50,893 nucleotides of DNA from Mucilaginibacter sp. GTDB lineage: Bacteria; Bacteroidota; Bacteroidia; Sphingobacteriales; Sphingobacteriaceae. The stretch is from assembly GCA_028288285.1 (NCBI GenBank), contig JAQBNZ010000239.1:1-50893 (forward strand). The letters are read 5' to 3'. Under the pieces are notes generated by a model. The model was given only the letters and a program-made list of their open reading frames with translations. It made no database searches and had not been told where the DNA came from. Within the stretch, counting starts at the first letter, position 1, and each line of letters begins with the position of its first letter. The position numbers were made by a program, and so were the translations under genes. Positions 769-35,217 of this stretch are shown one piece after another.

Positions 769-3700
769 TAGTAGTTACGTGTTTGTGAATATTGGCCCCA
801 CCTGTCACCGACCTTAACATTGACAACCGGCTGTTTCTGCTTTCTTAATAAGTCGTTATTTTCTTCTAAAAGCTTTTCCATTTTACGGTTATCAGCTATT
901 TGCCCATTACCATACATGATTGGTTCCGGCTTGCCTACCATTCGCATTAGTTCGCTGTTGTTAATAATCTTAGTGCCTTTTTTGAGGTAGGTTACTGTAT
1001 CGGTATCCGGCGTTAATGACATGTGCCCGCTTGGATCAATCATTAATTCAGTACCTCTTTCTCCAACATGGGCTAATCCTTCTTTTGAATGCGGTGTACC
1101 AGTGAAATATTGAGGGATAGGCTGGGCGGCAACTACTGCAAGCTGGGCGGCTCCAATAGCACCGATAACTATTGCAAGAGCTTCGCCATAAATTGGAATT
1201 GACAATGCGCTAACAATTGCAACGGCTGTTCCTTCGATGATTTTAGCAAGATTTACAGCTTTGCTAAACTTAGCCTCATCCTGTTTTATCTTTTTTTGCT
1301 GATCTGCTATTTTTGCCTGAGCGGAAGCGGCCTGAGCATCTATAATATTATTTTCACGGGCCTTTTCCTTACTGCTAAGGATGGAACCGTTAACAGCATT
1401 CTTTTCAGCCTGAGCGTTTTGAGCAATTAGTTCTGATTGATGTTGCAAGGCATCTATTTTAGCCTGTGCGTTTTGATCTATTAAAGAATTTACAACATCA
1501 AGTGCCTGAATAGCCTCCTGCGCAAATGCGATTACTTCTTTAGTTTTATCCTTTTGATCATTAACATCAGATTTACCCCCGTCAATGCTTTGTTTATTCT
1601 TAGCATCAGAAACAGCTATATCAGCCTTTGAAACTATATTAGCTTGTTTAGCAACACCGCTTTTTTGTTTAACTGCGGATACTCCAGCATCTCCGCCACC
1701 GCTTGCAAGTGCAGCGTTTACATCATTGTTCTCCTTAGCTTGTAAAATAATTAATTTTGCCTTTTCGAAGTCAGCTATCTTGGTAAGGCGATCAACGTTA
1801 TACTGATCTTCTATTTTTAATAAATCATCCCTAAACTGTTTTTCAGTTATTTTATGGTGGGTATATTTTTCGATTAATAGGGTATCCTCTTTGTTTTTTT
1901 GCTGATCTAATGAAGTAAGTTGGTCATCAAGCTGCTGTTGTAATATATCGGTTGCCTTAGTTGCGGTTTCTTGGTCTGTTTTTAATATATCTTCAAGATT
2001 CTTCTTTAATTTTTCGCTCGTTTCTTTTTGGATTTTTAGCCGTAATTGTTCGGCTTCATTGGATAATTCAATTGTTGCTTTTTGTTCATTTTGCAATGCA
2101 ATATGTTTGCTTTTATCGTTTTGACCGGCTTCTCGAGTTTGTTCGTTAAAATCAGATTTAATTATGGATGATGAGCGTTGTAAATAAACTTCAAGGGCCT
2201 TTATTTTAGCATCATAAGATTGCTCAGGATCATCTAAAATACTTTTTGATAAATCCTTTTGCTTTTGAAAACTATTTTTTAAAATCTGTTGATCCTGCTT
2301 ATAAGCTTTGTCTTTTAAGGATTGTGATTGAGAATCACGTGTTTGTTCCAATTGCAAAATCTCATTTTGATAAGAGTTTTCAATCTGTAATTTTTGATCA
2401 GCGCTTAATTTAATGCCATTGGTAGCAAGTTTTTCATTATTGTCTGCTATTCCCTTGCTTGCTACATAAAAGTCTTGTATGGCCTTTAAACGAGTATCAT
2501 AGCTTTGTTTTTCATCGCTAATTAATTTAGAAGCTAATAGTTTTTGTCGCTCTAATGGTGCATTAGCCAATTTGGTACGAAGGGCTGCAATTGCATCATC
2601 TTGCCCGGTGCCGCTTGTCCCCTGTGCGATACCTAATTTTTTTTGATCTTCGTTTCGTTTTTTAAACAGGCTTTCAATAGCATCTGAGCTATTTTTAAAA
2701 TGGTCTTGAAACCGCTTATCATTATCATTAATTTGCTTTTGGTCGTTAGCTAACCTGGCAGCGGTTTCTTTTTTATCTAAAGATGTAGGATTTGCATTTA
2801 TAAACTTTTTGCCGAAAATATAGGAGGTATTATTTTTTGCATCCTCCATGTCGTTACGCAATTTTTGATTTTTAACTTCAGTATCTGCGGCGAATTTTGC
2901 ATTGTCTGCTAAAATTAACTGAGCTGCTGCTTCTTTAAGAATCATGTCAATATAAACAGGAGCATTGTCTATAAAACCTTTCTGTGCCTCGGTTAATGTA
3001 TCTACAAATCCAGCCGTTTTTCCTATAGTTTGGTTATACTCATTAATTACTGTGTCACTATCTTCCAAGCCTTTTTTGGCTAAATCAATATTAACGCCCA
3101 ATTTTTGGATATTTTCAATAGCTGTAGTATATACAGGAGAGGCGAAAGCTTCGGTCAATGCCTTTTGTCTCATTTCTGATTCGCTTGCTACCTTGCTAAA
3201 TAAATCAAGTTCTGAAATAAGTTTTGCCAGTGCTTCAAAAGCTAAATTAAATAATCCAGCAAGTCCAATGCCTGGTAGGATATAAGCTAATTGACGTAAA
3301 GGCGAAATAAATCCACTAATAGATTTACCTACATTACTAAATGCAGATGCTCCTTTTTCGGCTTCTTTTGAAGCTTTAGATTGCGCTGAAGCATAATTAC
3401 CAACGTTATCATTGAATTTACCTTGTGCCTCGTTATTGGTTTTTGTGGCAGCAGTTAACATAGTAACTACTTGCGTTAATCGAATACCCTCTTCGCTATT
3501 TACTTTCTCCGATTCAGACATTCCATTTAATGCCTTACGGGCCTGATTAAGTTGAGCCGTTAATGCTTCATTTGACGTTGACGCGGCTAACTGCTCTTTA
3601 GTTTGTTGCTTAATCAAAAGGGTGAGTTGGGCAGTACTTTCTTTTAACTCAATTTGAGTTTTTGTTAGTTGAACTGTTTTTGAATTATGCGCCTCGACAG

Positions 3701-4145
3701 ATTGTCTCGAAAGTGATGTAACTTTTGAATGTTCCTTTAATTCGGCATTAACCTGGGCCAGTTGTGCTTTTTGTTCTACCAACAGTTTGATATTATCCGT
3801 TGTGGAACCGTTTAACAGGGTAAGAATTTTAGAGGCATCCACATCAGCAATAACCTTCGCCTTAGTGGATTCAACCAACGTTTGAGTGGCTATATTGGCT
3901 TGCTGCTGAAGTGCGGTAACCTCCTGCGTTTTAGTGGCTATATTCTGCATGGCAACACTTGCAGAATTACTCACTACAGCAAATTCAGATAAGGACTTAG
4001 TATTGCCTATGGCATCATTATACTGCCGTGCTACAGCAATGCCATCGATCATCTCCTGTCTAACTATTCCAAGCTTTTGAAATACCTGTTCTAACTGTTC
4101 AAAGCCTTTTTCGTCTACGAAGTCTGTTAATTTACCTGCACTCAT
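768..4145 (-). CDS. Tail tape measure protein
   Basis: This 1125-aa protein is the longest in the window and lies between tail-assembly and distal-tail genes, as expected of the tape measure that fixes tail length and may help DNA entry. Most of the sequence is alanine-, lysine- and glutamine-rich coiled coil. A hydrophobic stretch lies near 285-305 and another near 1010-1045 (ending in an alanine-rich run), and the C-terminal part carries the GERGTELM motif common to tape measures. Its ATG overlaps the preceding gene's stop by four bases (ATGA). No lysozyme or peptidase domain is evident. Confidence 0.93.
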   Translation of the reverse strand: MSAGKLTDFVDEKGFEQLEQVFQKLGIVRQEMIDGIAVARQYNDAIGNTKSLSEFAVVSNSASVAMQNIATKTQEVTALQQQANIATQTLVESTKAKVIADVDASKILTLLNGSTTDNIKLLVEQKAQLAQVNAELKEHSKVTSLSRQSVEAHNSKTVQLTKTQIELKESTAQLTLLIKQQTKEQLAASTSNEALTAQLNQARKALNGMSESEKVNSEEGIRLTQVVTMLTAATKTNNEAQGKFNDNVGNYASAQSKASKEAEKGASAFSNVGKSISGFISPLRQLAYILPGIGLAGLFNLAFEALAKLISELDLFSKVASESEMRQKALTEAFASPVYTTAIENIQKLGVNIDLAKKGLEDSDTVINEYNQTIGKTAGFVDTLTEAQKGFIDNAPVYIDMILKEAAAQLILADNAKFAADTEVKNQKLRNDMEDAKNNTSYIFGKKFINANPTSLDKKETAARLANDQKQINDNDKRFQDHFKNSSDAIESLFKKRNEDQKKLGIAQGTSGTGQDDAIAALRTKLANAPLERQKLLASKLISDEKQSYDTRLKAIQDFYVASKGIADNNEKLATNGIKLSADQKLQIENSYQNEILQLEQTRDSQSQSLKDKAYKQDQQILKNSFQKQKDLSKSILDDPEQSYDAKIKALEVYLQRSSSIIKSDFNEQTREAGQNDKSKHIALQNEQKATIELSNEAEQLRLKIQKETSEKLKKNLEDILKTDQETATKATDILQQQLDDQLTSLDQQKNKEDTLLIEKYTHHKITEKQFRDDLLKIEDQYNVDRLTKIADFEKAKLIILQAKENNDVNAALASGGGDAGVSAVKQKSGVAKQANIVSKADIAVSDAKNKQSIDGGKSDVNDQKDKTKEVIAFAQEAIQALDVVNSLIDQNAQAKIDALQHQSELIAQNAQAEKNAVNGSILSSKEKARENNIIDAQAASAQAKIADQQKKIKQDEAKFSKAVNLAKIIEGTAVAIVSALSIPIYGEALAIVIGAIGAAQLAVVAAQPIPQYFTGTPHSKEGLAHVGERGTELMIDPSGHMSLTPDTDTVTYLKKGTKIINNSELMRMVGKPEPIMYGNGQIADNRKMEKLLEENNDLLRKQKQPVVNVKVGDRWGQYSQTRNY

Positions 4146-4339
4146 TTCAATTTGGTTAAAGTGTCCTCGTCTTTAGTTAGCTCAATCTCATAATGAGTAG
4201 TTTCATCAACTCCACACGACACATAGTAAATGATGCTCTCTTTCCGGATAATATGGCCGGTTATAATTCGTGCCCTTTGTTCAGGATCTGTTTTTAAATA
4301 AACAGTTTCGCCGTATTCAAATGCTGCGTTTACTATCAT
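4142..4339 (-). CDS. Small tail-region protein
   Basis: A 65-aa protein rich in beta-type sequence (YGETVYLKTDPEQRARI), which looks like a conserved small protein of Bacteroidota phages; that resemblance is from memory. It overlaps both neighbours by four bases (ATGA type), so the three genes are translationally coupled. Its place just before the tape measure suggests a tail-assembly role. No catalytic residues are seen. Confidence 0.75.
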   Translation of the reverse strand: MIVNAAFEYGETVYLKTDPEQRARIITGHIIRKESIIYYVSCGVDETTHYEIELTKDEDTLTKLK

Positions 4340-4956
4340 GCTGATTGTGGTTTATAGCGTTCTTTCATTCTTTTAATGTCAGCGCAATACCTGGCAACGG
4401 TGTATTTATCTTCATCTATAGAACATGATTTGAATTCCTCAAGAGCTGATAGCTGTAATTGATAATCCTGTCTTGTTGCGGCTTCACCATCACCTTTGCG
4501 AAGTTCTTCCAGTTCTGCTTTATTCTGCTCCAATTCCAATAGGATAGCTTTGCTTTGAATAATGGTTAATTCCAGCTCGCGCCTTAATTCAGGCCCATCT
4601 TCATATTGGAATCTGAACCCTAATGAACGCAGGTGATCGGCCAATTTAAAATCGTGCTTATTTTCCATCTGCTGCACGATGGTTTCAATTAGGAATAGTT
4701 TATTAGTAAGGATCGCAATGTCTTTGACAAGGGCTAAAATGGTACTGATTTGGGTATCTCCTGATATGGCAAGGTATTCGGTAAATACTTTATCCCAGGC
4801 ATCCGCTAATTGGGCCTGATTTGGATTGCCGGATTTGGTTAACCCATTGAAGTTATGGTCAACCATAGCATTGATAAAGGTTGCCATGGATACCTCATAA
4901 CAGGAGGTAAAACATTCAGATATTAAAGCCTTTTTTTGTTTGAATATTGCAAGCAT
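4336..4956 (-). CDS. Probable tail assembly protein
   Basis: A 206-aa, mainly helical protein with a strong glutamate-rich coiled coil at about 125-185. It sits where siphoviruses encode tail assembly chaperones, two genes before the tape measure. No slippery heptamer or frameshift extension was noticed, so it is not a typical G/GT pair. It is the first gene after a strong terminator (5086..5116) and therefore needs its own promoter in 4957-5080, which I could not identify with confidence. Confidence 0.7.
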   Translation of the reverse strand: MLAIFKQKKALISECFTSCYEVSMATFINAMVDHNFNGLTKSGNPNQAQLADAWDKVFTEYLAISGDTQISTILALVKDIAILTNKLFLIETIVQQMENKHDFKLADHLRSLGFRFQYEDGPELRRELELTIIQSKAILLELEQNKAELEELRKGDGEAATRQDYQLQLSALEEFKSCSIDEDKYTVARYCADIKRMKERYKPQSA

Positions 4957-5085
4957 AATGTTTGAATTTTAGCTTGCAAATTAGCCTTAGTTGGGATGCT
5001 TCATTTGAAGATTACCACGGCCCGATAAGAAAGATGTATTTGCGAACATCCGTTGATACAAATGTAATTATTTTTTAAATAAAAA

Positions 5086-5116
5086 AACCATCCTCGCTCT
5101 CGCAGCTTGGATGGTT
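5086..5116 (-). terminator. Intrinsic terminator (leftward)
   Basis: Perfect 8-bp stem, AACCATCC at 5086-5093 with GGATGGTT at 5109-5116. On the minus strand the stem is followed by seven T residues. It ends the transcript of the gene at 5168..5620. Confidence 0.88.
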
Positions 5117-5167
5117 AAAAATATCAAATAAAATAGAAAATATGAGTGGCTGTAAAAGTAGCTTTTA

Positions 5168-5620
5168 TTATCCAAATATTAACCCTGTTTTTTCGGTGAT
5201 GTAATCATGGATAACCGGGGCTAATGTATCCTCACAATAGGCGGTCATATTCTCATCACTAAGCCTTATGAAATCAGGGCCGTATTGAGTTAAACTTTCG
5301 TTCTGTGCATAGTCAACATTACTTTCCACATTGTATTCATCTCCTTTTATGGTAACACCTAATCCGGCATCAAAAGCACCTGTTAAGCGTCCGTCTGGGG
5401 TGCCATAACCAGCTAATGGGTTTAACTGCTCTTTCTTAGTGGAGTAATAATTTGAGCCGTAGGATGGCGTTACCTTTTCGCCGGTTGATAGTTGGCCCAG
5501 TTCTTTTTGACCTACAATAAGTGCGGTAATTTCATACGATGTTTGCAGTACCATATTTGGCAGTTCTGCACGCAAGTTTAATGCTGCAAAATCTTCGTAT
5601 AATTCATCTATTGTTGACAT
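5168..5620 (-). CDS. Virion-associated protein, probable tail or connector component
   Basis: A 150-aa product from the ATG at 5620 (MSTIDELYEDFAAL). The frame has an upstream ATG at 5683, but that extra 21-aa leader looks like untranslated AT-rich DNA. The middle contains YGSNYYSTKKEQLN and a beta-rich segment GVTIKGDEYNVESNV. The gene lies between the tail chaperone position and the major tail gene and ends at its own terminator. The family is unknown to me; a head-tail or tail-completion role is inferred from place alone. Confidence 0.7.
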   Translation of the reverse strand: MSTIDELYEDFAALNLRAELPNMVLQTSYEITALIVGQKELGQLSTGEKVTPSYGSNYYSTKKEQLNPLAGYGTPDGRLTGAFDAGLGVTIKGDEYNVESNVDYAQNESLTQYGPDFIRLSDENMTAYCEDTLAPVIHDYITEKTGLIFG

Positions 5621-8569: not shown

Positions 8570-9720
8570 TGTATTGATACCCCCGGGTTGTTTGCAACAG
8601 ATGCGTTTTGCTTAATCCAATTTTGCTCGTAGCTATCAAGCCCGTTGCAGTCACTTTCCATACTGGTTGACATAGGACATTGAGGTGGATAGAATGTATT
8701 CCTGAGCTTCTTGAACTCAGCCATTATCCTGCTCTTTAAACCTGGTGTTACCGGTACTTCTTTGGTTGCGAATGCCTGATTAAGTTCCATAAAAGCCTGT
8801 TGGCTCTTTTGCTCTGTCAAACGTTCGGTTGCATTGCTTCTGGTATTGTTATTTACCAGTTCCATAGCAAAAGCTGCCATCTGCAAACCTTGTACCTCAT
8901 CAAACAAATTCGCCATCCTGATAATCTTTTGGGTGTGATCTTTAAAACTGATGATCTCAAGATTTACGCCCATTGGTAAGGCAGGATATTGCTTTGCATT
9001 GATGTTGAATACGCTGCCATCTGTTGTGGGCGGCATTTGGATGCTATAAGCTTCAAAGCATCGGGTTGTAGCAATAGTTTGAACCTGTTCACGGATAGCT
9101 TTGGCACTGCCTAATTCAGCCTGATTATACAGGAAATAATAACGCTGGCCAGTTTTAAAGTTTAATACCAGGTCACTGAAATCAACCGCTGTATGTTGCC
9201 ATGCAACGACATTTATCGGAATAGTTTTAAGCGGAGTTCTGATACCATCCTGATATAGGTACATGTTAAATGTTACATTGCTATCAAAATAGAAAGTCCC
9301 CATTTTGATTTGGGAACTGATACTGTGATCATTTGCAACATTTATGCACCATCCGGCCCATTGTCCCTGATTAGGTAATGGCTGATCATTCATGCCAAAG
9401 CGGGTGTACATTAAGCATTGCTCCAATAATTCCGGCTCCCTGAATACCTCAGTCAGGCTCCGCATGATCATATCCGTTTGCATTTGTGCAAGCAGTGCAT
9501 TCATATTGGTATCATTGATAGCAGGATCTTCCTGATTTGCTTTGATGTTATTGATCGTGCATAAGGCATGAAAACCAGGACCGAAATAACGGCCTGATAC
9601 CGACACTATATTGCCTCCAGTTAAAACAGGGCTACCTGCAATAGTCGGTTGTCTCCATCCCAGCCTTTGTGATAAGGCCGGCAATACAAGGTCGGTATCA
9701 AATCCGTTAGTGTAGTTCAT
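8566..9720 (-). CDS. Virion structural protein (384 aa)
   Basis: The protein opens MNYTNGFDTDLVLPALSQRLGWRQ-like and contains several segments typical of beta-rich structural proteins, then a helical C-terminal third and a Cys-containing tail. It overlaps its downstream neighbour by four bases and its upstream neighbour by one (TAATG). I do not recognise the family. Position after the capsid gene makes it a head or connector component. Confidence 0.65.
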   Translation of the reverse strand: MNYTNGFDTDLVLPALSQRLGWRQPTIAGSPVLTGGNIVSVSGRYFGPGFHALCTINNIKANQEDPAINDTNMNALLAQMQTDMIMRSLTEVFREPELLEQCLMYTRFGMNDQPLPNQGQWAGWCINVANDHSISSQIKMGTFYFDSNVTFNMYLYQDGIRTPLKTIPINVVAWQHTAVDFSDLVLNFKTGQRYYFLYNQAELGSAKAIREQVQTIATTRCFEAYSIQMPPTTDGSVFNINAKQYPALPMGVNLEIISFKDHTQKIIRMANLFDEVQGLQMAAFAMELVNNNTRSNATERLTEQKSQQAFMELNQAFATKEVPVTPGLKSRIMAEFKKLRNTFYPPQCPMSTSMESDCNGLDSYEQNWIKQNASVANNPGVSIQ

Positions 9721-14372: not shown

Positions 14373-16142
14373 TTAGTTAGCGTTTCTGATTGTTTCTGAT
14401 ATACTTACAGTTGGTGGCACAAGCAGATCAGCAGGAAGAACCATCTTCGTAGTTGCGTAGGCTGTTAAATCAGCTAAAAGCAATTCCTTAGTTTTTTGCA
14501 GCAAGAAAGCATCATCTTTAGTAGCCAGCCACTCGCTGAAATAGATTTTAGTGAAGAAGTCTATACGCGATGGGTTATTGGCCTGAACCTGAACGGCTGT
14601 CTGATGTATGAAAGGTTCAACATCCATTAGCTTTAGCTTAATAGCTAATTGCCTCTGATCATTGGCATACATGGCATGATAGTATTTGCTTAGAACGTCA
14701 AATAAAGCCGTCTGCGGTGCTCCTTTTGTTTTCATGTCTAAATACTGCTCCATTAACTCATCAGGAGTTTCAAGGATATAATACCTGCCATACGTGCGAA
14801 CTGAGCCTTTGAATGTAGCGCCGAATAACTGAAAGCCTATAAAGTCACATAATGCGTTTTCGGTAGTTTCTGCCCAGTCTGCAGTTTTGTTGAGGCGTAA
14901 ATAAACTGGCTGTAAATCAGATAATGTTTTGGTAGCAGTTTCTTTGAATGAATGTTTGTCTCCAACAGTGGGGCCGGTTGTGCTTTGAACCGATGTTGTA
15001 CCCCAGTATGTGTCATTCATTGCGGTTTCAATATCATTCAGCGCTGTATCCTGTTTGTTCCACACATCAATAGGAGGGGCTATATACCCAAAGAACTTAG
15101 ACGGATCTTGAATACCGCCTTGCTGTCCCTCTTTAGGTAAAGGGAAACGGGCAATATCAGCAACCTTGGTTCGAAGTTTAAAACCCAACCCCTTATCGGC
15201 ACCGGCAGGCGTACAGTCAGGGCAAGCATTTCCGCTTAAAAATCCTACGCCTGCGCATTTTTCACATTTAAGTAAAGGTTCGTATCCTTTAGGAAACCCA
15301 CTGTATTTTTTGCTTAGGTCCCTGATAGAGCGGTCCTGTAAGTATGTGTCGGCTAATTCAACTGTTTTGCTGATAGGGGATAAGAAGTTTTGGTTATTCT
15401 TAAAGTCAATGAGGTTAGATGCTATAATGGCCGGCACTACCTTAAATACATTTGGGATAGAATCAATCAGTATTATTGTGCCGTCTGAATTTTTAACTAT
15501 CCTGTCTTCCGCATCATCAACAAACCTGTAATACATTGAATATTTATCTGGGTCACCCTTAAGGTCGCTTTCATTGCTGATATCAATTTTGGCATTTGTC
15601 AGCAATTGCACTGCTTCACTATTGGTTAACCTGAAACAGATATATTCAAGCTTACGGCCATTAGTTTGATAATCATAGATACAATCTGTGCTTTTATAAG
15701 TGGGGTAAGAATTATTATTGGCATCAACCTCAATGAATAATACTGCCATAGGGTCAACGCGGTAGGCTTGCAGAGCAAACTCCTTTATCCAGGTGCGGAT
15801 AGTCATGTTATAGCGGATGGTATCCAGCGTAGCATCCATCTTAACAGTTTGTACATCGCTCAAGCCAGTGTATGCGCATGCGCCGCCTTTAGCAGTGAAC
15901 ACCATCTCTTCACGGTGTAATAAACGAGCGAATAAATCAGCGTTTGACGTAGCGTTTTCGTTACGCACTTTGAATACATCAGCGTTCTCAAAATAATCGT
16001 TTCTTTTCAGGGCCTGATCTATGCCAGTGCCGAGAATATTTAACTGTAATTTTTGGGATATTTCACGGGCATTTGAAATCAATGATTTTGCCGGATTATT
16101 CTTTACAATTAATTGAACTTTATCAAAGGATATTTTCGCCAT
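14373..16142 (-). CDS. Portal protein with an internal zinc-binding motif
   Basis: A 589-aa protein directly downstream of TerL, the usual portal position and size. I use ATG 16142 (MAKISFDKVQLIVKNN); the frame extends seven codons further to 16163. Portal-like features are the early helix/loop region followed by NTADWAETTENALCDFIGFQLFG and a helical C-terminus. An unusual insert at about residues 293-310 has CEKCAGVG and ten residues later CPDC, a four-cysteine zinc knuckle resembling a DnaJ finger. The portal forms the dodecameric DNA channel of the capsid. Confidence 0.83.
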   Translation of the reverse strand: MAKISFDKVQLIVKNNPAKSLISNAREISQKLQLNILGTGIDQALKRNDYFENADVFKVRNENATSNADLFARLLHREEMVFTAKGGACAYTGLSDVQTVKMDATLDTIRYNMTIRTWIKEFALQAYRVDPMAVLFIEVDANNNSYPTYKSTDCIYDYQTNGRKLEYICFRLTNSEAVQLLTNAKIDISNESDLKGDPDKYSMYYRFVDDAEDRIVKNSDGTIILIDSIPNVFKVVPAIIASNLIDFKNNQNFLSPISKTVELADTYLQDRSIRDLSKKYSGFPKGYEPLLKCEKCAGVGFLSGNACPDCTPAGADKGLGFKLRTKVADIARFPLPKEGQQGGIQDPSKFFGYIAPPIDVWNKQDTALNDIETAMNDTYWGTTSVQSTTGPTVGDKHSFKETATKTLSDLQPVYLRLNKTADWAETTENALCDFIGFQLFGATFKGSVRTYGRYYILETPDELMEQYLDMKTKGAPQTALFDVLSKYYHAMYANDQRQLAIKLKLMDVEPFIHQTAVQVQANNPSRIDFFTKIYFSEWLATKDDAFLLQKTKELLLADLTAYATTKMVLPADLLVPPTVSISETIRNAN

Positions 16143-17765: not shown

Positions 17766-18010
17766 TATTCAATTATTATGGGTTCATCCTGTAAGGATAT
17801 ATTGGCGCTTACGTTTACCTGTGTTGGTACAAGCCTGATACCTAATTTATAGAAGTCGCCGGGGTTTTCTTTCGCCCATGCTTCAAGGCTTGCTTTAGGA
17901 TCATCTTGCAGAGAATAAAATACATCTGCAAATATCTCCTTAATTAGCTTATTCGTTTTAGTTAACGCTCCCTTTGGTTTACCGGGATTTCCTTTTTCAA
18001 ATTTCGCCAT
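17765..18010 (-). CDS. Small terminase subunit candidate
   Basis: An 81-aa protein that is the first gene of the late leftward operon. The start MAKFEKGNPGKPKGALTKTNK matches the GNPGxPKGA-type leader common in small-terminase-like phage proteins, followed by a helix that includes EIFADVFYSLQDDPKASLEAWAKENPGDFYK. It is shorter than typical TerS proteins. Position before TerL supports the call. Confidence 0.7.
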   Translation of the reverse strand: MAKFEKGNPGKPKGALTKTNKLIKEIFADVFYSLQDDPKASLEAWAKENPGDFYKLGIRLVPTQVNVSANISLQDEPIIIE

Positions 18011-18158
18011 ATAAATATCTTCGTAAATGCCCGTATTTTTCGGGATTTATTATGCTCAAAAATAAGGCATTTATTTCATTGAAAAGAATGTGAATATTTT
18101 GATTAAAAAAGTGTGAATAAATTATCAGAAAAAATGTGCTATTTATTTTCAAATAAAG

Positions 18159-18189
18159 TTGCATTATATTATAACTTCTTATATCTTTA
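18159..18189 (+). promoter_or_regulatory. Bacteroidota-type promoter candidate
   Basis: TTG at 18159-18161, 20-base spacer, then TATCTTTA at 18182-18189, close to the TTTG-N17-23-TANNTTTG consensus. It would start transcription near 18196, about 20 bases before the ATG at 18217. Confidence 0.5.
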
Positions 18190-18216
18190 CATCATCAAAT
18201 AAACGAAACAAATAAT

Positions 18217-18495
18217 ATGGAAACTTTAGCTTTAAAACCACAACACGAAACAACTGTAATAGGTCAATTATTAAGTCTTAAATCTCAATTAGTATATCAT
18301 GCTAAAAATACCGCTCCTTTTTATAACGAAATGGCAATATGGGAAATGAAAGAATATAAAGCAGTTAATGAAGATAATGAAGTTGAGTTTTTAAGGTTAA
18401 AGAATATACTAATTAGCAACCAATCAACTTTTAATGTTCTATTGTCTGAATATGGCCATAGCGTTGCGGTTTTTGTAAACAAGTACTTATTATAG
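18217..18495 (+). CDS. Hypothetical protein (92 aa)
   Basis: First gene of the rightward accessory block, divergent from the terminase operon. It is a soluble helical protein with VIGQLLSLKSQLVYHAKNTA. The region upstream (18011-18216) is very AT-rich and holds the divergent promoters. Function is unknown. Confidence 0.65.
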   Translation: METLALKPQHETTVIGQLLSLKSQLVYHAKNTAPFYNEMAIWEMKEYKAVNEDNEVEFLRLKNILISNQSTFNVLLSEYGHSVAVFVNKYLL

Positions 18496-18520
18496 GAATC
18501 GCTCATATTTGCCTTATCGA

Positions 18521-18602
18521 CTCGCTATAACACAGCGGGGATTTGGCGGTATAATCACTTAACAGTCCCGCGCAGGACTTCATAAAGTCGGCAGAAAAAG
18601 AC
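18521..18602 (+). ncRNA. Structured leader element, copy A
   Basis: About 80 bases immediately upstream of the gene at 18603. The core shares most positions with 19443..19519. A hairpin AGTCC-cgcgcA-GGACT occurs at 18564-18579. The same TCCC bases can instead pair with GCGGGGA upstream, giving two mutually exclusive folds. The hairpin differs from copy B by paired changes (UCC/GGA versus CCC/GGG). It may be a leader that controls translation or attenuation. Confidence 0.55.
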
Positions 18603-18905
18603 ATGAATACTTTAACTATTCCTCAGACTATTACAAGCAAAGAATTAGCCCACGTTTTATTCACATTATTAACCAACTTACCAGATGATGTTGACATGGC
18701 TATTATTGCAAGTGCTTTCAATCAGGTAATGCAATATAATGAGCTTAGGTTTAAGCCTTATTTTAGACTACTTGCCGAGGCTGATGATAAATACCTTATT
18801 ACTCCTTTTGATACTACCGAGGATTTCTTTTATGATGCTATCAATTCAAAGGTTATGTATCAGGATAAAGTAGAATACTTAATCAACTTAACTATTAATT
18901 TTTAA
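18603..18905 (+). CDS. Hypothetical protein behind structured leader A
   Basis: A 100-aa protein starting MNTLTIPQTITSKELAHVLF. It is acidic and helical with a DDVDMAIIASAFNQVMQYN segment. Expression is probably governed by the leader at 18521..18602, because its ATG lies 23 bases after the leader hairpin. No family is recognised. Confidence 0.65.
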   Translation: MNTLTIPQTITSKELAHVLFTLLTNLPDDVDMAIIASAFNQVMQYNELRFKPYFRLLAEADDKYLITPFDTTEDFFYDAINSKVMYQDKVEYLINLTINF

Positions 18906-18911
18906 TCACAT

Positions 18912-18931
18912 GCCCGGTGTAATAGCCGGGC
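18912..18931 (+). terminator. GC-rich hairpin, possible weak terminator
   Basis: GCCCGG at 18912-18917 pairs perfectly with CCGGGC at 18926-18931 across an eight-base loop; only TTT follows. It lies between the genes ending at 18905 and starting at 18949, so it could be a weak terminator or an RNA-processing element. Confidence 0.45.
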
Positions 18932-18948
18932 TTTAATACAATATTATA

Positions 18949-19353
18949 ATGGAATACCTTACAGAGTTACCACCATTAAGCCCGGAAGATGTTGAACACA
19001 TGAATGGTTTTAGGAAATGGCTTGAAAGTCAGCCAAAACCCTCTCCTTATAAGCCATGGAAAGTAGTTAAGGTAAAGCGAGCCTCATCAATTTCAACCCT
19101 TAGGGATACAGGCCATAAATATTTTGATATGATTTGGAGGGATTTAAAACTATGCGATAGGAACGAACTATACGATCACTTAGCAGGGTATCTGAATTTA
19201 GATAAGCCAGAAACGCATTTTAAATTCTTTAACCCTAATCAATGTATTGAGGCAATAGAGTTTGCGATACAGTATTTAAACGATGATAGACGGCTGGATA
19301 TGGACATAACAGGCATTGAGCCACGTGCATACTTTGAATTAACAATTATTTAA
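18949..19353 (+). CDS. Hypothetical protein (134 aa)
   Basis: The protein has a proline-rich start (MEYLTELPPLSPEDVEHMNG), then LRDTGHKYFDMIWRDLKLCD and a helical C-terminal part. No catalytic motif is visible. It is followed by a 166-base gap holding the second structured leader. Confidence 0.65.
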   Translation: MEYLTELPPLSPEDVEHMNGFRKWLESQPKPSPYKPWKVVKVKRASSISTLRDTGHKYFDMIWRDLKLCDRNELYDHLAGYLNLDKPETHFKFFNPNQCIEAIEFAIQYLNDDRRLDMDITGIEPRAYFELTII

Positions 19354-19442
19354 GAAGCGCGGCGTTTGGAAGTCCGGCCGGTGAACTAAATTCTGACCTC
19401 CTATTGGTATTTACCTGACTGTATGGAAAGACCGCCTGCCGC

Positions 19443-19519
19443 CTCGCCTAACACGCGGGGATTTGGCAGTATAAACCATTAACAGCCCGGCGCAGGGCTT
19501 TAAACTCTGCACAAATAAC
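19443..19519 (+). ncRNA. Structured leader element, copy B
   Basis: Second copy of the element at 18521..18602, directly before the gene at 19520. Shared blocks include GCGGGGATTTGGC and a TATAA-containing stretch. The hairpin is AGCCC-ggcgcA-GGGCT (19484-19499), with base changes on both sides of the stem relative to copy A. As in copy A, the CCC can pair with the upstream GGGG. The upstream part of this gap (19354-19442) shows no other feature I can name. Confidence 0.55.
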
Positions 19520-19663
19520 ATGAAACTAATAAAAAATCTACAAAGCGGTAACCAGGTTACACAACGCAATACCTTTTTAGTGCTATTCGCTATTACTATT
19601 GTTACTGCTATTATTTTAAATCATGTTGGTATTATTAACTTAGCCATATTAAACAGACCATGA
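19520..19663 (+). CDS. 47-aa membrane protein behind leader B
   Basis: From ATG 19520 to TGA 19661-19663 the frame encodes a polar N-terminus (MKLIKNLQSGNQVTQRN) and one hydrophobic span (TFLVLFAITIVTAIIL). Its stop overlaps the next ATG (ATGA), so the two genes are coupled. Function is unknown. Confidence 0.6.
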   Translation: MKLIKNLQSGNQVTQRNTFLVLFAITIVTAIILNHVGIINLAILNRP

Positions 19664-20223
19664 ATAAACTTGAATTAAAACACCTTGCACCTTATTTACC
19701 TTATGGATTGAAAATATATACAATTGATGATGACGGTAAAGCTGTTATACAAACGATTAAAAACATTGCATTTACCAAAATTATAGGTCAGTATAATATT
19801 GAAACCAATGAGGGATGGGATATTGGATATGATGATTTTAAACTTTTATTATTACCATTAGCGGAATTGACAACTATACAAAATAATAGTAAATCTCATT
19901 TATCTGTTATATGTCACAAGTTTTTTGGTTTTGGAATTGACCATGTGCAAGAGCCTGAATTTAATGTAGTTCAGGAAAATGGATTTTACGGGTATCAAAG
20001 CAATAACCAACACATTTCCTTTGTTAAAGAAGAAACATGCTATGGAATTAGTACATACTTTGTTTTTTATCAAAAAAATGATGGGTTATGGATTGCACAA
20101 AAAGTGACCGATCAATTAGAAATGTTTCAATATTTATTTGAACATTTCTTTGACGTATTCGGTTTAATTGATGCCGGATTAGCGATTAATAAATTAGATT
20201 TGCCGCATAATTTTACCACATGA
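19660..20223 (+). CDS. Hypothetical protein (187 aa)
   Basis: The protein opens MNKLELKHLAPYLPYGLKIY, a start that resembles small phage proteins of Bacteroidota that often begin with a similar LAPYLPYGL phrase. The middle is aromatic-rich (GISTYFVFYQKNDGLW). It is coupled by ATGA overlaps to both neighbours. Function is unknown; an accessory role is inferred from location. Confidence 0.65.
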   Translation: MNKLELKHLAPYLPYGLKIYTIDDDGKAVIQTIKNIAFTKIIGQYNIETNEGWDIGYDDFKLLLLPLAELTTIQNNSKSHLSVICHKFFGFGIDHVQEPEFNVVQENGFYGYQSNNQHISFVKEETCYGISTYFVFYQKNDGLWIAQKVTDQLEMFQYLFEHFFDVFGLIDAGLAINKLDLPHNFTT

Positions 20224-20456
20224 AGTCACCAAACATCAGTGAAGAATACCTTTTACTAAGACGAATTGAAATAGGTGCCAGGTTAAGAGCTTTAAGGCTT
20301 GAGCGGGGCCTTACCGGTGAACAGGTTGGTGATATCACCGGGTTAAGCAAGAACCATATCAGCAGGATAGAATCAGGCAAGTATAATTTCAACTTTGATA
20401 CCTTAGTCCTTTTATCTGTCGCGTTGAATTTTGATATAGAACTTATTCTTAAATAA
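20220..20456 (+). CDS. XRE-family HTH regulator
   Basis: A 78-aa protein with a full Cro/C1-type helix-turn-helix at about 16-76. The core RLRALRLERGLTGEQVGDIT is followed by GLSKNHISRIESGKYN, the standard recognition helix and scaffold. It is the last gene of the rightward block before a terminator, and probably regulates that block or the neighbouring divergent promoters. Confidence 0.88.
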   Translation: MKSPNISEEYLLLRRIEIGARLRALRLERGLTGEQVGDITGLSKNHISRIESGKYNFNFDTLVLLSVALNFDIELILK

Positions 20457-20475
20457 GGTAACCAATAGAAATAGT

Positions 20476-20504
20476 AAAGCCCGAAGTTTATAGCTCCGGG
20501 CTTT
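20476..20504 (+). terminator. Intrinsic terminator between convergent operons
   Basis: Perfect 8-bp stem, AAAGCCCG (20476-20483) with CGGGCTTT (20497-20504), running into a T5 stretch on the plus strand. It ends the rightward accessory operon and faces the end of the leftward early operon. Confidence 0.85.
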
Positions 20505-20508
20505 TTAG

Positions 20509-20712
20509 TTACTTAGATTTTACTCCTTTTGTTGGTTTATCTGTTTCTTCATACTCCCTTAGAAGCTTTTTATACAAAGCTGCCTCTTTTTCAAAAGGTG
20601 CCTTTTTAGCAAATAATGAAGCGGCTTTCGCCTGAATTTCAATATCTATTTTTTTAATTTCCTGCTGGGCGGTTTTTATCTTGTTTTCGATAAAAGCTTT
20701 TAGATCACTCAT
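20509..20712 (-). CDS. Small coiled-coil protein (67 aa)
   Basis: Lys/Glu-rich helix throughout (AQQEIKKIDIEIQAKAASLF), ending KPTKGVKSK. It is the last gene of the long leftward early block. Function is unknown. Confidence 0.6.
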   Translation of the reverse strand: MSDLKAFIENKIKTAQQEIKKIDIEIQAKAASLFAKKAPFEKEAALYKKLLREYEETDKPTKGVKSK

Positions 20713-22740: not shown

Positions 22741-23802
22741 TTATGCGCCGTTTTTTATGTGCTTTTCCAGTAATGTTATAAAGGCCAATTCTGCTGTTTG
22801 CTCCACAACCGAATTGCCAATAGCGCGGTGAAGGTCTTCTGTAAAGTTGTACCCATCAATTGTATAGACCATCCTGGATTCAATCGTGCGGGGTTCTTCC
22901 CATTCGTACTGAAAGCTTCCTTGCCCAGCAGGGAATAAACTTGCCTCGGAAGTTGATCGTTCCTGTCCTTTCCATCTTTCCTTTCTGCCGTCATTCCCGG
23001 GGTGTCCTTCCAGTATCGACTGGAAGGAGTTGTCCAAGATTGAATTGCATGTCCCAAATTCATCCCTATTCCGTTCCCGTTTATTTTCTTCAGGATCGCC
23101 TTCTCCTTTCTCTGCTGAAACATATCCAATGTTTGTTCCTGAATCATTGATGTAGGTGTAGGCCATGGAATTACTGCTGAATTCAAGTCTACTGTCCAAC
23201 CCTTCTCCACTTTCCTTTGATAATTCAAACTTCCCTGTAAATCCGGTGATCGATAATCCCTCGTTTGAGGTGTCGGCCACGTCAATAACTCTCTGTTCCA
23301 ATGAGGTGCCTGATCCCTTAACTTCACTTTCGCATTCGCTCCGCTTCGTATCTCCAAAATACCGCCCTCCCCGTCCGAGGATACCGGCGTTTTCCATAAT
23401 TCCGAAAATAAAGAGCCGCTCTCGTCTATGGGGTGCGCCAACTTCCTCCGCAGTAAAGATTCCTTCCTCAACTCGGTAACCAAGATTTGATATGCTTCTT
23501 CGTACTTCTCCATATCCCATTGATAAATGCCCTCCGACATTTTCAAAGAAAACCCAATCCGGTCCGATGATTTTAATCTGTTCCAATATATACGGGAAAA
23601 GGTGTCTTTCATCTTCAATACCATGTCGTTCTCCTGCGAGGCTAAACGGCTGGCATGGATATCCTCCAATGATTCCGTGTATTTTGTTACGAAATGGTCG
23701 TGCATCGAATGTTTTAACATTCGTCCAAATAGGTGCGGAATCCAGTAGACCAGCTTCCATTTGTCCAACCAGGTTTGCAATGATAAAGGCTTCGATTTCC
23801 AC
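22741..23802 (-). CDS. DNA cytosine-C5 methyltransferase, main part (interrupted gene)
   Basis: From the GTG at 23802 this 353-codon frame has most 5mC methyltransferase motifs: GGYPCQPFSLAG (motif IV with catalytic Cys), FFENVGGH (motif VI), APHRRERLFIFG (motif VIII) and AIGNSVVEQTAELA near the end (motif X). It lacks the SAM-binding motif I, which lies upstream in the same frame at 23839..23952 beyond an in-frame TAA. A GGGGAGG sequence follows that stop, so reinitiation is imaginable. A second frame (22776..23954) is open through the whole gene. It may be a split enzyme, a recoded gene or a dying one. Confidence 0.8.
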   Translation of the reverse strand: MEIEAFIIANLVGQMEAGLLDSAPIWTNVKTFDARPFRNKIHGIIGGYPCQPFSLAGERHGIEDERHLFPYILEQIKIIGPDWVFFENVGGHLSMGYGEVRRSISNLGYRVEEGIFTAEEVGAPHRRERLFIFGIMENAGILGRGGRYFGDTKRSECESEVKGSGTSLEQRVIDVADTSNEGLSITGFTGKFELSKESGEGLDSRLEFSSNSMAYTYINDSGTNIGYVSAEKGEGDPEENKRERNRDEFGTCNSILDNSFQSILEGHPGNDGRKERWKGQERSTSEASLFPAGQGSFQYEWEEPRTIESRMVYTIDGYNFTEDLHRAIGNSVVEQTAELAFITLLEKHIKNGA

Positions 23803-23954
23803 ATAAGCGATAACGTCAATCGCTTTTCCTCCCCGGAATTAAATATTCCAATCTGCTGTAATGGTTCGAATTGCTCTTTCAATACCTCTTTCGAGGCCAA
23901 GTATTCCGGGACATAAGCTGAGTACAGCTTGTGATTTGAAGGTATTATCCACAC
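22776..23954 (-). CDS. W-x-TP repeat protein overlapping the methyltransferase gene in another frame
   Basis: A 392-aa product with no stop, covering almost the whole methyltransferase in a shifted frame. It begins at ATG 23954, whose last base starts the methyltransferase GTG (ATGTG). It carries LMWKSKPLSLQTWLDKW (about 49-65), LWKTPVSSDGEGG, TWPTPQTRDY, PWPTPTS, SWTTPSSRYWKDTPGM and a closing LNPGWSIQLMG, a motif set I recall from phage proteins annotated as hypothetical or methyltransferase-associated. Its start overlaps the helicase-methyltransferase gene by ten bases. Function is unknown, but repeated motifs over 1.2 kb argue for real coding. Confidence 0.7.
   Translation of the reverse strand: MWIIPSNHKLYSAYVPEYLASKEVLKEQFEPLQQIGIFNSGEEKRLTLSLMWKSKPLSLQTWLDKWKLVYWIPHLFGRMLKHSMHDHFVTKYTESLEDIHASRLASQENDMVLKMKDTFSRIYWNRLKSSDRIGFSLKMSEGIYQWDMEKYEEAYQILVTELRKESLLRRKLAHPIDESGSLFSELWKTPVSSDGEGGILEIRSGANAKVKLRDQAPHWNRELLTWPTPQTRDYRSPDLQGSLNYQRKVEKGWTVDLNSAVIPWPTPTSMIQEQTLDMFQQRKEKAILKKINGNGIGMNLGHAIQSWTTPSSRYWKDTPGMTAERKDGKDRNDQLPRQVYSLLGKEAFSTNGKNPARLNPGWSIQLMGTTLQKTFTALLAIRLWSKQQNWPL
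23839..23952 (-). pseudogene. 5mC methyltransferase N-terminal fragment (motif I) before in-frame TAA
   Basis: A 37-codon stretch in the same frame as 22741..23802, starting at GTG 23952. It encodes AVLSLCPGILGLERGIERAI, which matches the SAM-binding N-terminus of phage 5mC methyltransferases, and stops at TAA 23841-23839. Downstream, IAYVEIEAFIIANL resumes the family sequence. One T-to-C change would restore the frame, and it would be silent (TTT to TTC, Phe) in the overlapping 392-codon frame. Confidence 0.75.
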
Positions 23955-34955: not shown

Positions 34956-35147
34956 TTACAAGTCTGCGTACTCATCTTTAATAGGGTATAACTCTGTTAC
35001 TTTGGGCTGGTATCTAACCCAGTCCCCATAGTAATCTTTAATACAAAAGGCCTTACACCTTACACATTTGCGCTGTTGGTTTTTAACAGGCGTCCTCCAA
35101 TCGTGGCCGAAAAAGAAGCAGATGATTTTAAGCAGTGATTTTCCCAT
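34956..35147 (-). CDS. Small zinc-ribbon-like protein (63 aa)
   Basis: The peptide has FFGHDWRTP and CVRCKAFC, a likely Cys/His zinc site. It is a short, aromatic, basic protein in the recombination/early region. Function is unknown. Confidence 0.6.
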   Translation of the reverse strand: MGKSLLKIICFFFGHDWRTPVKNQQRKCVRCKAFCIKDYYGDWVRYQPKVTELYPIKDEYADL

Positions 35148-35173
35148 TTTGTAATGATTAGTTACCTGAAAAT

Positions 35174-35197
35174 CCCCAAGCCTTGTGAGCGTTGGGG
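35174..35197 (-). other. Hairpin in gap between small early genes
   Basis: CCCCAA (35174-35179) pairs with TTGGGG (35192-35197) around a 12-base loop; only a short T4 run follows on the minus strand. It may be a weak terminator or processing site. Confidence 0.4.
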
Positions 35198-35217
35198 TGT
35201 ATGGTTTTAGCTATTGA

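Follow-up and report, generated by a model that had tools for sequence, protein, structure and literature searches.

The two related stretches in the window (a 50,893-nucleotide piece of Mucilaginibacter sp. DNA, contig JAQBNZ010000239.1) are, as judged from sequence comparison, members of an undescribed family of small folded RNAs in phages that infect Bacteroidota-type bacteria. The comparison shows a predicted RNA structure that is conserved, tied to gene junctions, and carried by unrelated phages, and it also shows that both predicted stems, an outer one (P1) and an inner one (P2), are kept by compensatory change. We tentatively propose that the element is an intercistronic cis-acting RNA that tunes expression across the junctions of co-directional phage genes, a reading which may prove right. 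A two-copy curiosity thereby becomes a widespread phage RNA family that is absent from Rfam, has a clear consensus, and offers capsid junctions as ready test sites.

In the consensus, P1 (4-6 bp) is formed by the 5' flank pairing with a GGYRG segment. Inward of it comes an internal loop whose 5' strand has 1 to about 10 nt and whose 3' strand is [A/U]UUU, and then P2 (8-10 bp), which reads CCUC..GGGG with a variable middle and ends in a small loop, of the GNRA kind or another. The 3' tail reads GGYRGUA, after which 12-50 nt lead to the next AUG. About half of the family is of the UUUU type and half of the AUUU type, with CAUU or UAUU in some members, and P1 is weak or missing in L446, L465, and L488.

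The first-pass annotation had pointed to related, duplicated stretches at 18521-18602 and 19443-19519, each in front of a small ORF (100 aa at 18603 and 47 aa at 19520), and pairwise alignment agrees. The window contains the 20-mer GCGGGGATTTGGCRGTATAA at exactly two places, compared with none in 100 shuffles, and the whole assembly (257 contigs) likewise has just two. A third copy on the opposite strand, missed in that annotation, was matched by a covariance model. The copies and their neighbouring genes are as follows:

18509..18549, plus strand: core of copy 1, with P1, linker, P2, GATTT (18540-18544), and then GGCGGTA.
18509-18513 and 18545-18549, plus strand: P1 of copy 1, TTGCC/GGCGG, assigned by comparison and absent from the copy's own minimum free energy (MFE) fold.
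18521-18526 and 18534-18539, plus strand: P2 of copy 1, CTCGCT/AGCGGG, present in the MFE fold.
19436..19469, plus strand: core of copy 2, with P1, P2, and ATTT (19461-19464).
19436-19440 and 19465-19469, plus strand: P1 of copy 2, CTGCC/GGCAG, in the MFE fold.
19442-19447 and 19455-19460, plus strand: P2 of copy 2, CCTCGC/GCGGGG, in the MFE fold with a pair probability of 0.98-0.99.
35206..35162, minus strand: copy 3, the match of covariance model R1.
35197-35189 and 35182-35174, minus strand: P2 of copy 3, CCCCAACGC with GGCTTGGGG, followed by ATTT and then TCAGGTAA.
18217..18495, plus strand: gene upstream of copy 1, 92 aa, no family.
18603..18905, plus strand: gene downstream of copy 1, 100 aa, no confident family.
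19520..19663, plus strand: ORF downstream of copy 2, 47 aa, overlapping the next gene.
19660..20223, plus strand: gene for a 187-aa protein, phrog_10841, of unknown function.
34956..35147, minus strand: gene downstream of copy 3, 63 aa, a DUF1660 prophage protein.

Each copy was matched by a covariance model to whose training it had not contributed. Model R1, with copies 1 and 2 among its 38 training sequences, matched copy 3 (21.3 bits, E 2.1e-4); model R2, with copy 3 in its training and copies 1 and 2 outside, matched copy 1 (24.8 bits, E 3.4e-5) and copy 2 (33.2 bits, E 1.2e-7). Model R3 was trained on 15 capsid-junction elements (10 from a homology scan and 5 from earlier pattern scans), none of them from the window, and ranks the three copies first to third among its five window matches (E 0.0024 for copy 1, 0.018 for copy 3, and 0.069 for copy 2). 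Further copies with strong covariation, which the first-pass annotation had named as the key test of its idea, were thus obtained by covariance model searches and covariation counts.

By folding energy alone, copy 3 has a z of -2.45, and copies 1 and 2 lie near shuffled sequences (z about -1.1 to -1.7). Such ordinary values for copies 1 and 2 are uninformative in isolation, and the case is a comparative one. These energies would suit two unrelated look-alikes, that is, a chance similarity combined with a chance hairpin, which we consider scarcely credible given the lack of 20-mer matches in shuffles, the third copy, and the independent model R3. Furthermore, a hairpin of at least 9 bp was observed at 53 of 170 sites with GGGG plus the motif (31%), compared with 68 of 6770 other GGGG sites (1%). 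At control sites with GGGG and [A/T]TTT lacking the GG, such hairpins were found in 22 of 143 cases, as expected from ordinary phage terminators.

The hairpin that had first drawn attention, here called P3, is peripheral to the element:

18564..18579, plus strand: P3 of copy 1, AGTCC/GGACT, with a pair probability of only 0.05.
19484..19499, plus strand: P3 of copy 2, AGCCC/GGGCT, with a pair probability of 0.84-0.90.

The compensatory change claimed for P3 is real and affects both halves of the stem, but concerns just one pair (T-A to C-G). P3 is not a conserved structure, as related elements lack it; conserved are P2, which lies upstream, and the outer stem P1, which had been overlooked. It had also been proposed that the C-run pairs alternatively with the GCGGGGA block. 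This pairing has a probability of 0.40 in copy 1. In copy 2 it is 0.00, and forcing the GGGG to pair downstream there costs 8.8 kcal/mol (-18.5 vs -27.3). The alternative pairing is therefore unconserved, and the idea of two conserved alternative folds falls away. The data give no sign of a riboswitch either, as neither a ligand-type aptamer nor a switching platform was seen. What survives of the earlier picture is a structured cis-acting RNA that is copied beside small phage genes; the promoter-proximal leader or riboswitch is unsupported, and the RNA may be an attenuator (equivalent to a leaky terminator) or a protein-binding site.

Covariation was counted in several sets, which differ in how they were sampled. 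The scans of viral contigs used patterns in which GGGG, UUU, GG, and GUA were fixed. They delivered 88 nonredundant elements, of which 78 were kept after dropping 10 doubtful or cut rows from nine loci (L108 twice, L158, L251, L263, L053, L213, L259, L232, and L090); the 78-element set was used for stop distance, promoter, P1 duplex, loop, and flank counts. Conservation of the GGYRGUA tail is only partly independent because the scan patterns fixed it, and unforced copies of the tail exist in the L027 rows, the G170 series, and the capsid-junction alignment. Important to note here is that pairing percentages are inflated in pattern-scan element sets, where a hairpin was required: P2 is 92.6% paired in the 38 sequences of R1 and 96.3% paired in alignment A6 (60 sequences, namely 59 of the 78 kept elements and window copy 3), compared with 42-50% when A6 is slid. 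Double-changed cells, in which both partners of a pair have changed, numbered 70 for the whole structure in the R1 sequences (25 shuffled and 7-15 slid) and 125 for P2 in A6 (37 shuffled). In alignment A10, composed of 15 capsid-junction sequences, 10 of them from the homology scan and 5 from pattern scans, P2 is 100% paired with 24 double-changed cells against 8.7.

As these sets were filtered by pattern or hairpin, covariation was re-run on junctions chosen by protein homology. Capsid homologues were collected by protein patterns, and the best 80 of 334 gave 78 usable loci with 59 distinct junctions. The element is present at about 26 of the 59, with 17 assigned by script and nine moved to the element class by eye (L435, L437, L438, L439, L445, L446, L469, L470, and L479). 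Twenty-one of the 26 were aligned, and 20 each, in sets that are not quite identical, entered the P1 and P2 permutation tests. With hairpins chosen by eye, the P2 halves formed 148 of 160 standard pairs compared with 103 +/- 6.6 when permuted (reached in 0 of 2000), and the P1 duplex energy was -4.19 compared with -3.44 when permuted (1 of 1000). P1 partners change together, as in CACC/GGUG, CACA/UGUG, CACG/CGUG, and CUAC/GUAG. Among the pattern-scan elements, P1 covaries also within sets of equal linker length, and its duplex energy was -7.1 in the ATTT group and -6.5 in the TTTT group, compared with -4.9 and -4.8 for shuffled flanks (0 of 200 in both cases). Most of the element-bearing capsid junctions carry the tail nGnGGUAAAAG, and R3 recovers most elements of other phages.

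Several features argue for a role as RNA. GNRA tetraloops are a well-known RNA motif, and among the distinct 4-nt loops of the family 13 of 17 are GNRA (12 GAAA and 1 GCAA); in addition, the third pair of P2 is T.G, thus U.G in RNA, in 61 of 78 elements. Both features are meaningful in sense-strand RNA only and show that the element works as RNA. A DNA-level device, such as a mobile palindrome, a REP-like repeat, or a hairpin promoter, would account for a hairpin with several clustered copies per phage. We regard it as very improbable, since besides the sense-strand loops and T.G pairs, the orientation toward the next gene is fixed, the stem sequence differs among copies within one phage, and a promoter motif is missing upstream. 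A DNA hairpin promoter was rejected on the loops and T.G pairs. Promoter-like copies were rejected as well: TAnnTTTG is the promoter motif of Bacteroidota, and it is unenriched upstream of the element (6 of 78, compared with 5.3% of shuffles), in a count that covers this motif and has phage-specific promoters outside it.

The position of the element is that of a gene junction. An ATG-started ORF lies within 60 nt downstream of 75 of 88 elements, compared with 29% of random positions, and in 84 of 88 a co-directional gene stands within 160 nt behind the element. Upstream, a same-strand stop codon was found 7-52 nt away in 68 of 78 elements, and 64 of 78 have genes on both sides within 60 nt. 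The proximity of stop codons, together with the unenriched promoter motif, places the element between operon genes rather than behind a promoter as a leader. The usual spacing from stop to element is about 20-35 nt; the distance from stop to P2 is tight in the UUUU type (median 21, interquartile range 19-24) and has a median of 30.5 in the AUUU type. The distance to the ATG is loose, with interquartile ranges of 25-42 (UUUU) and 18-42 (AUUU). In the window, P2 of copy 1 begins 25 nt past the TAG of the upstream gene (18493-18495). For copy 3, the TAA (35220-35218) of a 53-aa ORF precedes P2 by 20 nt, and the ATG at 35147 follows it at a distance of 26 nt. Copy 2 starts 88 nt past the stop at 19353 and is an exception to the usual spacing, so that copies 1 and 3 have both a stop shortly before and an ATG shortly after them, and copy 2 has the ATG only. 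The upstream genes include at least nine that resemble major head proteins (three scored with PHROGs, the rest aligned or read from sequence) and also ArdC-like anti-restriction genes (one scored), whereas the downstream genes are small, diverse, and unrelated.

The capsid junctions also bear on the question of termination. The script sorted the 59 into 17 with the element, 2 with strong terminators, 25 with other hairpins (five or so of which fall inside the next gene), and 15 with none. Canonical hairpins with a long T-tract (6-9 T) numbered about seven of the 59 by eye and two by script, and many capsid junctions have a gap of a mere 2-24 nt. That the element is interchangeable with terminators, or with nothing, after the capsid gene points to a role in setting the ratio of upstream to downstream expression. 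Some members do look like leaky intrinsic terminators, in which P2 and the U-tract would free some polymerases after the upstream gene, with P1 and the tail being secondary. This account, which we think unlikely, draws on the location just past stop codons, on the GC-rich hairpin that precedes UUUU in half of the members, and on the alternation at capsid junctions between the element and hairpins with 6-9 T. It gives no reason to expect the covarying P1 that surrounds the U-tract, the GGYRGUA tail, or the AUUU, CAUU, and UAUU members, and a terminator scan (GC-rich stem with at least 5 T in 8) skips copies 1 and 2, although some other members would pass. Moreover, a co-directional gene stands behind nearly every element, which argues against an operon-end device. 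The sole canonical terminator-like hairpin in 18000-20600 of the window is found at 20476-20504 on the minus strand, where it stands between convergent genes ending at 20456 (plus) and 20509 (minus).

A translational operator or leader was considered as well. Here, P1 would sequester GGYRGUA ahead of the AUG, and its opening or closing by a protein or ligand would control the downstream gene. The constant 3' tail and its nearness to the AUG do fit translational control; the GGYRGUA strand of P1 comes as near as 4-5 nt to the AUG in several members (among them L034, L041, L056, L087, and L276), and the U.G pair and the tail suggest specific recognition. On the other hand, the AUG distance is otherwise loose (12-52 nt), the downstream genes are unrelated, the alternative fold proposed earlier is unconserved, and the carriers share no phage protein family, making this a rather doubtful explanation. 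Across the window and 13 element-bearing viral records, of each of which most was covered, a universal protein family was looked for and not found: the largest cluster held 8 of 14 carriers, with single-linkage blastp clustering at 1e-4 that misses remote homologues. A common phage-encoded binding protein was rejected on this result. As the carriers have no protein family in common, the partner more probably belongs to the host machinery (an RNase, RNA polymerase, or the ribosome) than to the phage.

We return to an intercistronic element that tunes expression in cis. In the proposed mechanism, it would act on the polycistronic mRNA at the junction, where the hairpin would end, process, or shield the upstream message and the downstream cistron would gain its own 5' end. 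Neighbours, for instance the major capsid gene and its small downstream neighbour, could then be expressed in different amounts. Because P1 encloses the U-tract and the tail is constant, more than termination seems to be involved, so that processing or 3'-end protection with a fresh 5' end is preferred. A distinctly improbable variant is a host-read signal, converged on or exchanged among unrelated Bacteroidota phages, that serves as an IRES-like intercistronic reinitiation element. On this reading, the outer stem would start directly past the region covered by a ribosome at the upstream stop codon. Termination there would be coupled to initiation on the next gene, at a structured start lacking a Shine-Dalgarno sequence, in a phylum whose translation does not depend on Shine-Dalgarno pairing. 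If confirmed, the tuning element would reveal how Bacteroidota phages, whose translation is unlike that of model systems, adjust the relative output of genes in an operon, and it would also provide a small expression-tuning part for these bacteria.

Known phage devices offer partial parallels. Phage T7 carries intercistronic RNase III sites and a terminator after its capsid gene (gene 10), and the coat protein hairpin of MS2-type phages is a translational operator. The T7 RNase III sites are likewise hairpins between cistrons with an internal loop, an upper stem of roughly 10 bp, and a U-rich 3' loop side, located near phage gene starts with one to several per genome. Position and topology of the element fit, but its lower stem is much shorter than theirs and small for a substrate of RNase III, it has the constant CCUC/GGGG and GGYRGUA as well as GNRA loops, and its cleavage is hypothetical. 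With terminators of the T7 gene 10 kind, the element shares the place, the GC-rich hairpin, and, in about half of its members, the U-tract; it differs in that this tract is only 3-4 nt and lies inside the covarying P1, in its constant tail, and in being followed nearly always by another gene. Like MS2-type operators, it folds into a short hairpin with a bulge and lies between cistrons close to a start codon, but it occurs with many unrelated downstream genes and carriers, has no common candidate binder, and leaves the AUG outside the hairpin.

The element was found in dozens of viral contigs and a few host genomes, and the carriers are phages of Bacteroidota and probably of close relatives. 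Viral records hold one to five copies each, often clustered. In G170 (L408), five successive copies lie at 1191-5484 within the first 5.5 kb, about 0.8-1.5 kb apart, and in four of the five, where the next ORF is clear, the element stands before its start codon. Among 90 members of the genus, R1 matched only G000, G010 (which has three copies), G031, and G042 with E below 1e-5, and among 41 relatives, R2 matched G000, G010, and, as a borderline case, G100; in 395 genomes of the phylum under strict filters, the own genome alone scored. When R2 was run on 21 Bacteroidota phages and Mycobacterium phage Bruns, plus MW202828 and MT497068, the best E was 0.0035, with no convincing match and none at all in Bruns. 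Locus-level blastn against named phages gave no match, also for the L114 and L276 regions, and element DNA gave 19 chance-like matches to named phages, none covering 80%. The exact pattern occurred in six stretches of the genome contigs, none of them convincing or passing a stricter stem test; they include 6-bp stems in L116 and L120, from records titled Phycisphaerales and Clostridia.

In Rfam 15, the window had no match at gathering thresholds, and 18100-19700 had none at E up to 10. Twelve element-bearing loci matched tRNA only, and nine further loci gave, at E up to 3, one chance match to SNORD64 (L035, 888-951). No description of the element was found in the openly readable text of the literature, including PMC2864571 and PMC8040213, with subscription papers and supplements outside this scope. 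The main text of PMC8040213 describes, among its human-microbiome candidates, HMP_4078, a palindromic candidate RNA of 109 bp that occurs mostly in Bacteroidetes near phage protein domains. It resembles the element in being palindromic, in its Bacteroidetes and phage setting, and in having no terminator prediction; it differs in its length of 109 bp, a comparison made by description only, as the sequence sits in the supplements.

Some further observations concern individual loci. The phrog_10841 family turns up near the element in phages that are otherwise unrelated: besides the window gene at 19660-20223, a homologue in G174 (L403, 15833-16246) starts 24 nt after an element at 15765-15809, and one in G149 (L374, 13749-14141) lies about 1.07 kb after an element. 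A subgroup with L006, L013, L015, L017, L033, L050, and similar members has, in the leader of the small gene, an additional 5' hairpin (TTCCAG/CTGGAA, TTCCTG/CAGGAA, or TTCCGC/GCGGAA). Its loop, GCAAGT, is the complement of ACTTGC directly before the ATG. This invariant pairing would form a possible pseudoknot, and a third hairpin of the subgroup has varying pairs (TATAA/TTATA, TACAG/CTGTA, and CCGG/CCGG). At 9175 and 9705 on the plus strand of the phage contig L108, two GC-rich hairpins with tails TTTTGGAAGTACTC or ATTTGGAAGTACTC resemble the element and differ from it in the outer stem (GAGTGC/GTACTC). Finally, two long ORFs of the window, at 22741-23802 and 22776-23954 (minus strand), overlap by more than 1 kb in different frames. 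The former carries GGYPCQPFS, a motif known from cytosine-5 methyltransferases, and the latter may be a chance ORF or an overlapping gene.
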